A stretch of DNA of 64,000 nucleotides from Pseudomonas fulva (lineage in GTDB: Bacteria; Pseudomonadota; Gammaproteobacteria; Pseudomonadales; Pseudomonadaceae), in assembly GCF_023517795.1 (NCBI RefSeq), contig NZ_CP082928.1:1116001-1180000 (forward strand). Direction: 5' to 3'. Shown in pieces: positions 2,788 through 60,077 of this stretch (within the stretch, counting starts at the first letter, position 1; each line of letters begins with the position of its first letter). The notes under the pieces were generated by a model. The model saw only the letters and a list, made by a program, of their open reading frames with translations, had not been told where the DNA came from and ran no database searches. Both the position numbers and the translations under genes were made by a program.

Positions 2788-2885
2788 CTGCTGCTCCCCC
2801 TGGGTCGAATGTTCGCTCAGGGTATCGGAGTTCGCAGCGGAGGGAGAAATTCACTGTTGCGAGCAGGCCGACCGGCGGGCCATGC

Positions 2886-3104
2886 TCAGCGCAGGCCCTG
2901 GGACAGCCCCATCACCAGCAACAGCAGGTTCTGGTTGGCCTGGGCCGACACCGGCGTCACCCGCTTGAGTTCGGGGCTCAGGCAATAGCTGCGGCCATTG
3001 CTGCTGATGACCCCGGGCTGCGGCTCATACCAGGAGGCTGCCGCGAGGGCCGAGACGCTTAGCGCCGCGACGAGAAACAAACCTCTGACTACTCCTAAGC
3101 TCAT
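2886..3104 (-). CDS. Small secreted hypothetical protein (72 aa)
   Basis: The first 22 or so residues form a plausible Sec signal peptide (MSLGVVRG, then hydrophobic LFLVAALSVSALAA, cleavage near AAA/SW). The mature part is about 50 residues, with one cysteine (RSYCLSPE) and a hydrophobic C-terminal stretch (QNLLLLVMGLSQGL). It is preceded by an AAGAGGTTG-type ribosome binding site on the minus strand. Not assignable to a named family. Small exported proteins of this type are common in Pseudomonas. Confidence 0.6.
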   Translation of the reverse strand: MSLGVVRGLFLVAALSVSALAAASWYEPQPGVISSNGRSYCLSPELKRVTPVSAQANQNLLLLVMGLSQGLR

Positions 3105-6229: not shown

Positions 6230-6541
6230 CGCGGTTTCCTTGACGGAAGAACACCTTCCAGTAGGAGAGAAATATGGGGTGTTGCGCTTAATTCAAGCTG
6301 AAGCTTGGACTTCACCCGCTGGCGGCGCGTTCAACGCCAGGCGACGCGAGGCCCCGCGCAGGCCGGCCAGGCTGTTACAGGATGTTGAGGCTCGTCTCCA
6401 TGGCGCTGGTGCCAGCCCCGTGTCGCGCTCTATGCTGCCCCCGTACGTCATGGCAGTCGACCGGCCCGGGCGCGCGGCCACACCGGCGGCGGCGCCCTTA
6501 CCGGTATGACCCGTTCGACTCTTTCATTCAAGGGTATTGGC
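6230..6541. other. Divergent intergenic region fxsA / SDR
   Basis: About 310 bp between the divergent fxsA and SDR starts. Both promoters must lie here, but I see no -35/-10 pair good enough to call. The short reading frames inside look like GC-driven shadows. Confidence 0.5.
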
Positions 6542-7300
6542 ATGCAACTCGAAGACAAAGTCATCATCATCACCGGCGGCGGCCAGGGCCTCGGCCGCGC
6601 CATGGCCGAGTACCTCGCCGGGCGTCGCGTGCGCCTGGCACTGGTCGACCTCAACCAGGAAAAACTCGATGAAACCGCGGCGGCCTGCCGGGCGCTGGGC
6701 GTGCAGGCGCGCACCTACCTGTGCAACGTGGCCAGCGAAGAGCAGGTCACCCAGACCATCGCCCAGATCGCCGAGGATTTCGGCTCGATCCATGGCCTGG
6801 TCAACAATGCCGGCATCCTGCGCGACGGCCTAACCATCAAGGTCAAGGATGGCGAGATGAGCAAGATGAGCCTGGCCCAGTGGCAGTCGGTGATCGACGT
6901 CAACCTGACCGGCGTGTTCCTGTGCACCCGGGAGGTGGCGGCGAAGATGATCGAGCTGCAGAACGAGGGGGCGATCATCAATATTTCCTCGGTATCGCGG
7001 GCCGGCAACATCGGCCAGGCCAACTACTCGGCCGCCAAGGCCGCGGTGGCCGCCGATACCGTGGTCTGGGCTCGCGAGCTGGCGCGCTACGGTATCCGCG
7101 TGGCCGGCGTGGCACCGGGCTTCATCGCAACCGACATGGTCGCCGGCATGAAGCCCGAGGCCCTGCAGCGCATGACCGAGGTGATTCCGCTCAAGCGCCT
7201 CGGCAAACCGGAAGAGATCGCCCACGCCATCGCCTTTCTGCTGGAGAACGAGTATTTCACCGGGCGCATTCTCGAGCTCGACGGCGGTGTGCGCCTGTAG
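6542..7300 (+). CDS. SDR family oxidoreductase (FabG-like)
   Basis: This 252-residue short-chain dehydrogenase has the complete classical set: the nucleotide-binding TGGGQGLG near residue 12, VNNAGI near 87, an active-site Ser in NISSVSRAG near 148, the YSAAK Tyr/Lys pair near 162, and a C-terminal FTGRILELDGG. I chose ATG 6542 (MQLEDKVI) because the family begins there and an AAGGG lies upstream; an in-frame ATG at 6506 would add 12 atypical residues. It resembles 3-oxoacyl-ACP reductases, but substrate is not predictable. This family member neighbours groESL in P. aeruginosa as well. Confidence 0.9.
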   Translation: MQLEDKVIIITGGGQGLGRAMAEYLAGRRVRLALVDLNQEKLDETAAACRALGVQARTYLCNVASEEQVTQTIAQIAEDFGSIHGLVNNAGILRDGLTIKVKDGEMSKMSLAQWQSVIDVNLTGVFLCTREVAAKMIELQNEGAIINISSVSRAGNIGQANYSAAKAAVAADTVVWARELARYGIRVAGVAPGFIATDMVAGMKPEALQRMTEVIPLKRLGKPEEIAHAIAFLLENEYFTGRILELDGGVRL

Positions 7301-7351
7301 CATGCCGGCCATAAAAAGATTCTTCGCATTTTCGCGGGGAGGATAGGCTTG

Positions 7352-8111
7352 ACACCGGACTGGCAATAAAGCGTTCGTTGTCGATGGCTTGGCACTCTCC
7401 ATTACCCCGTCGCCTGGTCTGATGGGTTTCGCCCCTTACGGGCGAGTCACTTTCTCTTGCTTGCCCAAGAGAAAGTAACCAAAGAGAAGGGCACCCCACC
7501 ATCCGGCCCCGGCTGCGCCGGGGTTCCCTCCTTCCATCACCGCTCCAGGGGCACGCCGCGAAGGGCCATCCCTGCCTAGGCGGCCCCGGCCATCGCGGCT
7601 CTCGCGACATCCATGTCGCTCAACCCCTTCCACGGTGATTCCACTCGGCCTCCTGAAGGGGATTTAGGCGTCGTCTGTGAAATCGCGCTTCAAGAGCAAA
7701 AGCCAAACGCTACCGACTTTGATCTTGCGCAGATGTCGCAAGCTCGCGACATGGTCCCCTTCAGGAGGCCGAGTGGAGGTGTTGCGTAGGGGAGCGAGCC
7801 GCATGGATGCGGCGAGAGGCTTAATGGGCCAGGGATGGCCCATGTAAGCCGCCCCCCGGAGCGGCGCCGGAGCGAGGGAAGTTTCGCGCAGCGAAACCCG
7901 GATGTCGGGGTGCCCTTCTTTGGCACACCTTTCTTGGGCAAGCAAAGAGACGTAGCGAAGCGCAGTAACAGCCACAGGCTGGCCCGCAGGGTGAGCGCAG
8001 CGAATCAAGGTGTGGCGCCCGTAAGGGGCGCAACACAAAGGGTCAGTGGACGCGTTAATGGATAGTGCCAAGCCAGTAAGTGATACGCACACAAACTTGC
8101 CAGTCCGGTGT
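7352..8111. mobile_element. Large non-coding inverted-repeat element (760 bp)
   Basis: The region is a long imperfect palindrome with at least five matching blocks in mirrored order. The terminal 15-mer ACACCGGACTGGCAA at 7352-7366 is inverted exactly at 8097-8111. A 20-mer starting TGGCTTGGCACT (7385-7404) is inverted at 8056-8075 with one mismatch. CGCCCCTTACGGGCG (7430-7444) is inverted at 8016-8030. CTTGCTTGCCCAAGA (7456-7470) is inverted at 7932-7946 with one mismatch. A 22-mer, CCACTCGGCCTCCTGAAGGG plus GA (7641-7662), is inverted exactly at 7755-7776. The central loop is about 92 bp (7663-7754). No open frame with a recognisable product and no transposase. Treating it as a non-autonomous mobile element is inference. 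Confidence 0.7.
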
Positions 8112-8146
8112 CCCCCCACTCTTCCCAAACTATGCGGCCATAAGAA

Positions 8147-8168
8147 AGCCCCGCACGCAGGCGGGGCT
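8147..8168 (-). terminator. Terminator of the DUF481 gene
   Basis: AGCCCCGC (8147-8154) pairs with GCGGGGCT (8161-8168) around a 6-nt loop. On the minus strand it is followed by TTCTTA; on the plus strand by CTTTTC. It ends the gene at 8194-9198 and lies just outside the palindromic element. Confidence 0.75.
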
Positions 8169-8193
8169 CTTTTCAGCGTTGCGGCAAACCAGG

Positions 8194-9198
8194 TTACCAA
8201 CCCACCCCGAAGCCGATGGTGTAGCGGGTTTCATCCTTGTCGCCTTCCGAACCACTGACCTGGTCCTTGGATGCCTTCATGTTCAACGAGGCCCAGTCGG
8301 TGACCTTGTAGCGCAGGCCCACTTCGGCATCCAGCGCGTAGTCGGCGGCACTGGCCAGCGGCTTGCCCACCTCGCCGGTGCTGAACAGCTCGAAGGTCTT
8401 GCCGATCAGGTAACGGTTGTAGTCCCAACGCATACTGATGGCGTAGAAGTTGTCCTTCTCGCCGTTGGCGTACTCATAGTCGGAACGGTTGAGCAGACCG
8501 GCAACCGAAAACGCACCCAGCTCGTTGTCCCAGAACTGGTAACCCGGACCGGTACCCACCGTACGCTGCCGCTCGAGATCCTCGATCTGGTCGCGCTTGT
8601 ATTCGAAGCGCCCCTGCCAGAACCACTGTTCGTCGAGGAAACGGTCCAGGGCGTACTCGGTGCCCCAGTTGTCGGTGCTGACCACGTCGTTGCGCAGTTC
8701 GCGGTTGTAGTCGACCGTCGCATTGTGACGCCACTTGCCATGGCGGGCCTGGGTCTTGAGGTCGACGTCGTAGTCGTCGGTGTCGCTCTCGGCGCGCTTG
8801 TAGTCCATGGCCACGTCGACGTTGCCTTTCCACATGAAGTCTTCGACCAAGGGCTTGGGCTTCATGATCTGCTTGATGCTGGCCAGCTCGACGGTCTTCG
8901 GTGCATCGCCATTGGCGAGCGTCACCTTGCCGGAATCGGCGGCCTGCAGCGACTTGGCACGCTCACCGGTGATTTCGTTCTCCTTGACCAGCAGCTCCTG
9001 AGCGCTGTCGAGGGTGGCGATCTTTTTCCAGTCCAGCGGAATGGAACCACCGTAGTCGGTTTCCAGCAGCAGCTTGCCACCGTCGAGAACCTTGATGGTT
9101 CCGGTCAGGCGGTCGCCGTTTTTCATCCATACGGTATCGGCCAGCAGCGGTGTGGTGGCGACGCTGAGGCCCAGGCACAACAAGGTACGAGTAAACAT
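8194..9198 (-). CDS. DUF481 (YdiY-like) outer-membrane protein
   Basis: This 334-residue protein has a Sec signal peptide (residues 1-20, cleavage after PLLA, mature start DTVWMKNGDR). The N-terminal third (DRLTGTIKVLDGGKLLLETDYGG) resembles the small beta domain seen before DUF481. The remainder is alternating aromatic/charged beta strands (WRHNATVDYNREL, FWQGRFEYKRDQ, LGLRY-type strands) ending in a terminal GFGVGW, as in beta-barrels. E. coli YdiY is acid-inducible, but its function is unknown. It stands alone, divergent from the ATL gene. Confidence 0.85.
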   Translation of the reverse strand: MFTRTLLCLGLSVATTPLLADTVWMKNGDRLTGTIKVLDGGKLLLETDYGGSIPLDWKKIATLDSAQELLVKENEITGERAKSLQAADSGKVTLANGDAPKTVELASIKQIMKPKPLVEDFMWKGNVDVAMDYKRAESDTDDYDVDLKTQARHGKWRHNATVDYNRELRNDVVSTDNWGTEYALDRFLDEQWFWQGRFEYKRDQIEDLERQRTVGTGPGYQFWDNELGAFSVAGLLNRSDYEYANGEKDNFYAISMRWDYNRYLIGKTFELFSTGEVGKPLASAADYALDAEVGLRYKVTDWASLNMKASKDQVSGSEGDKDETRYTIGFGVGW

Positions 9199-45042: not shown

Positions 45043-45239
45043 GGCGCGCCAGAACGGAAAATTCCTTATAGAACGGAGATTTAGCGAATAAATGAGAAGT
45101 GGGACGAGCGCCCAAAGCGGGAAAGATGGCTAAAAAACAACCACATACATGAACCTACCCAACGAACTTAAAGTAGTTTGTTAAGAGTAAGATTTTTTCG
45201 GTATTAGAAATGCGGGGATGAAGCGAAAGCGGAAGGAGG

Positions 45240-45588
45240 TGGAGAGTCGATCTGTAAGCCGGGTTCTGTCGAGGACAGTCATTCCTCTACGACGTACATC
45301 ACTGCACGTCTTTAGCAACCTACCCGGTTCCAGCGCGGGCCACGCCAATGGAACCCTATTTGGTCTTGCTCCGAGTGGGGTTTGCCTAGCCACGGACTGT
45401 TACCAGCCGTGCGGTGCGCTCTTACCGCACCTTTTCACCCTTACCGGCACCGAAGCGCTTAGGCGGTTATTTTCTGTGGCACTTTCCGTAGGCTCGCGCC
45501 TCCCAGGCGTTACCTGGCACTCCGCCCTATGGAGCCCGGACTTTCCTCCCCCTTCCAAGTGGAAGGCAGCGACTGTCCGATCGACTCT
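45240..45588 (-). ncRNA. rnpB: RNase P RNA (M1 RNA)
   Basis: Read on the minus strand the RNA begins AGAGTCGATCGGACAGTCGC and ends GATCGACTCTCC, so the two ends pair as helix P1. The universal core is clear: GAGGAAAGTCCGGGCTCC early in the molecule, ACAGAAAATAACCGCC in the middle, GGTAAGGGTGAAAAGGTGCGG, and AGACGTGCAGTGATG before the 3' AACCCGGCTTACAGATCGACT. It is the catalytic RNA that removes 5' leaders from pre-tRNA. The position between rsmI and mraZ is usual for Pseudomonas. Ends are accurate to a few bases. Confidence 0.96.
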
Positions 45589-53324: not shown

Positions 53325-53594
53325 TTAGCGACGCAGACCCAGGCGACCGATCAGGGCGCTGTAACGGCTGGTGTCCTTACCCTTCAGGTAGTCCAGCAGC
53401 TTGCGGCGCTGGTTGACCATGCGGATCAGGCCACGACGCGAGTGGTGGTCTTTGCCGTTGGCCTTGAAGTGGCCTTGCAGCTTGTTGATGTTGGCGGACA
53501 GCAGAGCAACCTGGACTTCCGGGCTACCGGTATCGCCTTCGGCTTGCTTGTAGTCGTTAACGATCTGGGCTTTTTCTTCAACGCTGAGTGCCAT
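53325..53594 (-). CDS. rpsO: 30S ribosomal protein S15
   Basis: 89 residues, the standard length. [32 protein letters not shown] at the start, [24 protein letters not shown] in the middle and [12 protein letters not shown] at the end are diagnostic. S15 binds the central domain of 16S rRNA. It is upstream of pnp, the universal arrangement in proteobacteria. Confidence 0.99.
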
Positions 53595-53733
53595 GTGGGC
53601 ATCCTCTCATCTGGAGACAGTCGCAAGGACAGTCTCAATAGGCCGGGAATCGCTTCCCGTGTTTTAAAAGGAGGTATGACCGTGCCTATTGACAGCCACC
53701 CTCGTTACGAGCCGCCGAAACGGCTCGCCACGG

Positions 53734-59818: not shown

Positions 59819-59894
<76 letters not shown>

Positions 59895-59960
59895 CTAAAA
59901 CTGGGAGCGGATTATAAGGCTGAACCGCCATACAGGTCAACCAACCCCCAGATACAGAAA

Positions 59961-59979
59961 AGCCCGCATGCAGCGGGCT
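59961..59979 (-). terminator. Terminator between tRNA-Leu and tRNA-fMet
   Basis: AGCCCGC pairs with GCGGGCT around ATGCA, followed on the minus strand by TTTTCTG. Confidence 0.75.
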
Positions 59980-59991
59980 GTTCCGTTCAAT

Positions 59992-60077
59992 TGGTACCGA
60001 GAAGGGGACTCGAACCCCTACAGCCTATGGCCACTACCACCTCAAGGTAGCGTGTCTACCAATTCCACCACCTCGGC
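59992..60077 (-). tRNA. tRNA-Leu (GAG)
   Basis: 86 nt. On the minus strand it begins GCCGAGGTGGTGGAATTGG and ends with an encoded CCA after CTCGGTA. The anticodon loop TTGAGGT between CTACC and GGTAG gives anticodon GAG, reading CUC/CUU. The long class II variable arm (TGGCCATAGGCTGT) and a perfect T-arm (GGGGTTCGAGTCCCC) are present. It lies between secG and the initiator tRNA, the usual Pseudomonas position. Confidence 0.97.

Follow-up and report, generated by a model that had tools for sequence, protein, structure and literature searches.

Between the gene for an SDR oxidoreductase (positions 6506-7300, plus strand) and a convergent DUF481 gene (8194-9198, minus strand; both assigned from the ORF list and Pfam) in Pseudomonas fulva lies a long stretch of DNA whose two halves mirror one another, raising the question of what such a structure is, how it came to be there and whether it serves its host. 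The window, i.e., the whole stretch of 64,000 nucleotides that was analysed and to which all unprefixed positions refer, had been given a first-pass annotation from its letters, which saw here a 760-bp mirrored element with exact ends and no gene, and suggested among other possibilities a non-autonomous mobile element or a structured RNA. Both suggestions were borne out: the first by ISL3-type ends, 8-bp A/T duplications and three empty sites, and the second, for each arm separately, by Rfam matches and covariation.

Geometry of the element

A repeat search recovered the nested mirrored blocks in the order originally described, as five mirrored segments across 7337-8126 of 29-90 nt each with a complementarity of 71-80%, and an additional short local hairpin at 7446-7479. 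The ends are exact, as claimed, but are 16 bp long and not 15 (GACACCGGACTGGCAA at 7351-7366 and TTGCCAGTCCGGTGTC at 8097-8112), while the loop of about 92 bp was measured at precisely that length (7663-7754). Folded as single-stranded DNA, 7318-8143 reaches -262 kcal/mol, compared with -155 +/- 6 in 20 shuffles (z -17.6), so the mirrored stretch is not a product of chance. Profile searches with nhmmer place the left arm at 7423-7662 and the right arm at 7755-8047, with the RNA sense strand running from the centre outward in each, that is, minus on the left and plus on the right.

The mirrored element is therefore real, but its extent of 760 bp had to be revised, as conservation among the copies extends outward. 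In copies from the window's own genome (G000), G001 and G012, conserved sequence continues for about 33 bp outside the ends first described, on both sides, toward GGTTCTTCGCATTTTCGCGGGGAGGATAGGCTTGACACCGGACTGGCAA. When 20 left-hand and 17 right-hand ends of these three genomes and G008 are aligned, the two G008 copies do not clearly show the extension. With boundaries drawn by eye from the copy-conserved ends and the comparison of filled and empty sites, the whole non-autonomous ISL3-type element spans 822 bp (7318-8139).

ISL3-type ends and the transposase

The left terminal inverted repeat (7318-7366, plus strand) runs from an ISL3-like GATTCTTCGCATTTTCGCGGGGAG to GACACCGGACTGGCAA and scores 60.1 bits with a profile of the family's ends, and the right one (8097-8139, minus strand), in which the outermost bases are eroded (GGCCGCATAGTTTGGG), scores 41.0 bits (L171/L174). 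This profile finds ISL3 elements unprompted, with L113 at E 1.5e-5 and L111, L112 and L131 at E of about 1e-3. The end of L113, GGTTCTTCGCATTATCGCGGGAAAG, agrees with the consensus at 21 of 24 positions and its duplication is CTTTTTTT. Duplications were likewise read at other ISL3 elements of 1305-1308 bp, namely GGATTTTT at L112, TTATTTTT at L115 and AAAAAAAA at L116, and at further ones CAAAAAAA (L118), ATAAAAAA (L122), AAAAATTT (L123) and 7 of 8 positions (L111); G005 contains an ISL3 element of more remote kinship that has GGCTCTTCGCATTT in common. By eye, terminator-like hairpins were present at four of nine A/T-run ISL3 insertions inspected (L113, L117, L118 and L122), and the five inspected insertions of the G005/G030 type were not at such hairpins. 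A published case, described in excerpts of PMC11702846, is an insertion that bears an ISL3 element at the 3' end and lies, flanked by an 8-bp duplication, within a putative terminator of an rRNA operon.

A PF01610 search of the window's own genome returned no ISL3 transposase, only a false match; such transposases do occur elsewhere in the genus. The tally of 243 of 249 genus genomes with PF01610 is inflated by a match of about 40 bits in nearly every genome, which was discarded as a conserved transposase as the three that were read (L055, L057 and L062) look like a fatty-acid desaturase. That the curated PF01610 cut-off is passed at about 40 bits by an apparent desaturase, roughly one per Pseudomonas genome, is an annotation hazard in its own right. 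The absence of a transposase today is compatible with past mobilisation; present mobility is unsupported.

The end profile matches at least once in 23 of 120 stretches from a scan with at least that many hits; the 80 listed come from Pseudomonas and Stutzerimonas, plus a small number of metagenome records assigned to gammaproteobacteria or Pseudomonadaceae. Used by itself and with one mismatch allowed, the 13-base end was rejected as a family marker, being unspecific (23 places in the own genome versus 19 for the reversed control). As a separate observation, GATCTTGATCTT stretches around the copies in G020 look like the inner end that certain ISL3 elements have, although they point the wrong way.

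Insertion site and empty sites

An 8-bp match, GGCCATAA, had been pointed out on both sides as a possible duplication. The match is real and its ATAA part does belong to the target duplication, but the rest does not, the GGCC on the right being the element's own eroded end and that on the left being host DNA (GGCG in G001). From the end alignment and the empty site, the duplication reads ATAAAAA on the left (7311-7317), one A short of eight, and ATAAGAAA with one change on the right (8140-8147); G001 has GATAAAAA and ATAAAAAA in these positions. Immediately beyond is a bidirectional terminator hairpin of the host (GCCCCGC-ACGCAG-GCGGGGC, then TCTTTT; 8148-8173), which has a counterpart in G027 and the A-tract of which was the insertion target.

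A check for empty sites between the SDR and DUF481 genes had been proposed at the outset. Among 30 DUF481 loci retrieved from relatives, the two genes adjoin in six; the element is present in two of the six (G000 and G001) and absent from four, where the gaps are 60, 117, 14 and 50 bp. The empty 60-bp gap of G027 reads ...CCCAATAAAAAGCCCCGCCGAAGCGGGGCTTTTTTG, and G000 and G001 hold the element in the A-tract of the very hairpin seen there. Two further comparisons come from G001: its copy C5 is flanked on each side by an exact ATAAAAAA, at a place where G000 has an empty site (AATAAAAAAAGGGCG), and its copy C7 (GAAAAATA/AAAAAATA) also faces an empty site in G000 (GGCAAAAATAGGCG). In all three filled and empty comparisons, the window site included, the element has thus entered an A/T-tract and duplicated 8 bp exactly or nearly so. 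Among individual copies, the duplication is exact at L041, L038 and L045 (with ATTAAAAA on both sides of L038 and of L045, its G001 counterpart), holds at 7 of 8 positions at L043 and L047, and is eroded in the window copy; no clear duplication was found in the end alignment at L031, L042 and L048, which age could explain.

Judged by their flanks, five sites look common to G000 and G001 (184, 1123, 1380, 3602 and 4470 kb), and two more G000 sites for which empty counterparts in G001 had been hoped (4484 and 4966 kb) both hold element sequence there. With at least five sites common to the sister species and element sequence at two others, the family has not been recently active in this pair, and the G000 copies look old.

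RNA units carried by the arms

What, then, does the element carry? Across the loci searched, some of them duplicate, the arm profile gave 132 hits, and once four duplicate loci were dropped, neighbouring arms stood as 46 outer-to-inner pairs, 2 opposite pairs and 15 same-strand neighbours, the latter taken as split arms. In the centre-to-end direction, the 122 unique arms contain CANGGANG 186 times, 174 of them with a stem of at least 3 bp, and never on the reverse strand; 50 first-order Markov sets gave a mean of 12 (maximum 22), and of 0.7 with a stem (maximum 3). Since the arms are homologous, these counts are not independent draws and the covariation test is the stronger evidence. Hairpins with CANGGANG loops have the pattern of RsmA/CsrA (RsmA/RsmE) binding sites, and the own genome has one csrA/rsmA gene.

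For that test, 66 distinct cores were taken in which two motifs stand at a suitable distance, and 62 of them were aligned; the other four, among them the window's left arm, have long inserts separating the hairpins and were omitted; the cores were chosen by motif, so that the invariance of the loops is by construction, with the stems unselected. The three helices are paired at 93.5, 99.7 and 83.5%. Changes on both sides occur at 16 of 23 pairs versus 10.3 in shuffles, the covariation score is 0.318 versus 0.107, and none of 500 shuffles was as high on any measure; pairing falls to under 50% once the partners are offset by 1-3 columns. The weak part is the lower stem of hairpin 2, in which four pairs fail in 21-24 of the 62 rows, partly from a shift between two arm types. 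At pair 10-31, U-G wobbles in 24 of the 62 rows favour this strand as RNA.

A covariance model built from the arms (R1) scores 86.8 bits on the right unit (7786-7863, plus strand), whose hairpins, also seen in the fold, are GCCGCATGGATGCGGC (7798-7813) and ATGGGCCAGGGATGGCCCAT (7824-7843), and 70.2 bits on the left unit (7541-7631, minus strand), in which one hairpin (7604-7619) is intact and the second is broken by a 13-nt insertion. The Rfam family that these units resemble is TwoAYGGAY (RF01731), which matches the right arm at 7791-7856 with 37.4 bits (E 3.5e-4), below its gathering score of 43; the loops there are AUGGAU and AGGGAU, the second departing from AYGGAY, and the left unit has no RF01731 match among those listed. 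Two plant microRNA precursor models also match the long hairpin, at E 6.4e-5 and 2.8e-4 though with scores far short of the cut-offs set for those models, which means that an E-value by itself does not settle the matter. In relatives, RF01731 gave 25 hits in 14 of 15 loci, 10 of them above gathering (in 8 loci), and in a set of mostly more distant loci 13 hits in 10 of 15, with 6 above gathering. According to an excerpt of PMC2864571, the TwoAYGGAY motif is probably an RNA and not cis-regulatory, and comes from the human gut, gammaproteobacteria and Clostridiales; CsrA binding by this motif is a prediction made in PMC4333381 on the strength of motif matches. Elsewhere in the window, Rfam matches were RNase P RNA, a ribosomal S15 leader and two tRNAs (at 45239-45588, 53538-53640 and 59822-60077).

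Origin of the arm pair and distribution of the family

Repair between the arms had been offered as a possible reason for their conserved blocks, and this was not supported. In the 36 pairs compared, an arm has its own partner as closest relative in only 7 of 72 cases, and 20 of 22 elements picked out of them join one arm from each of two clusters. In these 22 elements, identity is 0.700 to the own partner and 0.811 to same-cluster arms of other elements. The clustering and the identities indicate that two unlike arms are inherited together as a heterodimer, and they show no trace of inter-arm repair.

Related genomes matched the element in a DNA search in 24 of 57 cases, and the own genome has it in at least nine places (of 42 first-look candidates nine were scored, and all nine match). 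R1 finds 20 units at 14 places in that genome, as six divergent pairs and eight singles. Across the phylum, at least 36 of 398 genomes and at least 15 of 212 genera match, the counts being minima because 11 candidates per genome were scored under strict filters; all of the matches listed belong to the same class or nearer. The 36 loci fetched with flanks of about 1.5 kb comprise eight divergent pairs, one convergent pair (L198), two tandem sets (L194 and L206) and 25 singles. The idea that the units always occur as inverted pairs was dropped on account of these 25 and the eight singles in the own genome; the TwoAYGGAY-like unit is thus wider in distribution than its ISL3 vehicle and is not tied to pairing.

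Several individual loci deserve mention. L206 (1293-2797), from a genome of another family in the same class, has three tandem 300-nt repeats, 593 and 612 bases apart, with TwoAYGGAY above gathering in each. In a G020 copy (L010:1247-1408), the centre is filled with REP-like palindromes (TAGTGGGACCGGCTTCAGCCGGGAAG). RgsA is a Gac-controlled sRNA, and at L031 (2826-3016, about 184.6-184.8 kb in the own genome) a copy of the element starts within the T-run that follows an RgsA match (2826-3007, 140.7 bits), 8 bases past the end of the match, which makes an Rsm-like unit beside RgsA noteworthy.

The local hairpin at 7446-7479, in the outer part of the left arm (GTCACTTTCTCTTG-CTTGCC-CAAGAGAAAGTAAC), has a distribution of its own. 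The first-pass annotation had recognised the CTTGCCCAAGAGAAAGTAACC-like stretch as widespread, and it is very widespread indeed: one record in the plasmid collection matches 52 bp of it at 90%, in six places, and this is a Fusobacterium replicon. There (NC_014633.1, Ilyobacter polytropus; L327:1490-1549), the block GTTACTTTCTTTGCTTGCCCAAAGAAAGTAACC...GGCACCCC is intergenic. L327 gave no real match to the arm model, and the phage collection gave no match.

Folding, transcription and a proposed role

Taken alone, the right arm folds into both GGA hairpins (z -2.8), and the left arm forms the first only, in a fold no better than shuffles (z -1.0). Full-element RNA was folded for both strands of 13 elements: among the strand folds that have the loop in question, 24 of 25 hide the first GGA loop, and 16 of 24 hide the second. 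For the window element, the second loop stays accessible on the plus strand, and on the minus strand neither loop does. Simple scans found no sigma-70-like promoter in 7280-8200, the 92-bp centre included, and no Gac box in 7301-8160. Given the hidden loops and the lack of these signals in the scans, a decoy role would need single-arm transcripts.

With moderate confidence, we regard this locus as an ISL3-family, MITE-like element in the terminator of convergent genes that carries a divergent TwoAYGGAY-type pair and would act as an RsmA decoy or tag when present as a single arm. Its mobility and RNA structure are well supported, by the demonstrated insertion, target and type of ends and by a covarying RNA fold; its transcription, RsmA binding, decoy or sponge effect and fold switch are what we infer. 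An ISL3 transposase acting in trans would have moved the 822-bp element into the terminator A-tract between the SDR and DUF481 genes and duplicated about 8 bp. The cargo would be a divergent TwoAYGGAY-type unit in each arm, with two GGA loops apiece that could suffice for one RsmA/CsrA dimer. As the element lies between the SDR stop codon and the terminator, an SDR read-through RNA would contain it, and single-arm RNA might arise by processing of that RNA or from a start near the centre, and then bind RsmA as a small decoy or a 3'-UTR tag; in a whole-element transcript, the arms would pair together and most loops would be hidden. A bolder version, which we consider speculative and rather unlikely, is that an RNA able to bind CsrA/RsmA was captured by a lineage of transposons, which then spread it as paired decoys to the 3' ends of many genes, tuning a global translational regulator, with the arm-on-arm fold as a switch that is silent in read-through RNA and active as a single arm.

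Of the competing explanations, the strongest makes this a plain selfish ISL3-derived element, with TwoAYGGAY units that are long-ago passengers, play no present part in Rsm/Csr regulation and inherited their structure from functional RNA genes elsewhere. The failure to find a promoter, the loops mostly hidden in read-through RNA, the hairpin broken in the window copy and the old, shared sites all fit this account; weighing against it are stems that covary while loops keep GGA over many arms (in an alignment chosen by motif, not by stem) and the complete lack of motifs on the opposite strand. We find it doubtful, though a serious possibility.

The position of most copies between convergent genes speaks for the favoured reading, but it could also hint at a two-sided transcription barrier, in which the long hairpin is kept by selection to insulate the genes. 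With the stricter third-position ORF filter, flanking genes are convergent at 15 of 19 copies, tandem at 4 and divergent at none (two G008 copies were left out, and some sites are shared, so that the copies are not all independent), over a background of 7 convergent pairs out of 47 in the window (6 of 46 without the element's own pair) and 4 of 62 in other loci; a looser filter gives 12 of 21 convergent, 7 and 1 tandem and 1 divergent. However, an insertion rule of A/T-tracts, often those of terminators, explains this siting by itself, without any role there; the terminator-like sites in 7280-8200 number 2 versus 1.0 +/- 1.2 expected, in a scan whose output lacks the host terminator at 8148-8173; and related units also occur single and in tandem, which together make a barrier very improbable. 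Just as poorly placed is a DNA-level structural site, a cruciform or a protein-binding or recombination site whose palindromes act as DNA: the strong foldback and the palindromic sub-blocks are what it would predict, but the U-G pairs noted above and the strand-specific GGA loops point to RNA. A small protein-coding gene is scarcely credible: ORFs of 65-178 aa are open across the element, but its conservation tracks base pairing and none of the five ORFs tested matches Pfam, in agreement with the original description of the element as geneless.

Relation to known systems

RsmX, RsmY and RsmZ, like CsrB and CsrC, are regulator-binding sRNAs with GGA hairpin loops. The element's units share paired GGA hairpin loops with them but have two hairpins per unit and many dispersed copies, and neither a promoter nor a Gac box was found. 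With TwoAYGGAY RNA (RF01731, clan CL00106), the arms of the element family share the closing stem and two GGA-loop hairpins at the same spacing; the window's copy differs in the sub-gathering score of its right arm, in the AGGGAU of that arm's second loop, in the broken second hairpin of its left arm and in being a divergent pair inside a transposon. The Pseudomonas ISL3 elements of 1305-1308 bp (L111-L113, L115, L116, L118, L122 and L123) are alike in GGTTCTTC-type ends, through about 36 bp in L113, and in 8-bp duplications within A/T runs, whereas the window element has no transposase gene and mirrored arms replace the interior.

Among repeats described in excerpts of the literature, R178 and R200 of P. 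fluorescens (PMC2718517) are similar, compared by description only, in being intergenic and biased to gene tails. The Pseudomonas MITEs and TIMEs, as excerpted from PMC3189936 and PMC4133298, are also miniature elements bearing the ends of parent transposons; the TIMEs differ in that their ends are of the Tn3 type, MITEPsy1 in its entry as "IS5?" and a duplication of 4 nt, and MITEPsy2 in ends that resemble a Tn3-family element. Literature searches of open-licence PMC papers, judged mostly by title and abstract, yielded no link between TwoAYGGAY or Rsm-binding RNA and a bacterial transposon.

The vehicle is thus of a known kind, non-autonomous and ISL3-derived, and the cargo of paired TwoAYGGAY-type RNA units is unexpected. 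It joins an orphan Rfam family, for which CsrA binding is the sole functional idea in the literature examined, to the mirrored repeats between Pseudomonas genes in which spurious ORFs arise, and if the arms do bind RsmA, the 20 units of this one genome would be mobile or once-mobile regulator-binding sites that change models of Rsm titration and its evolution.
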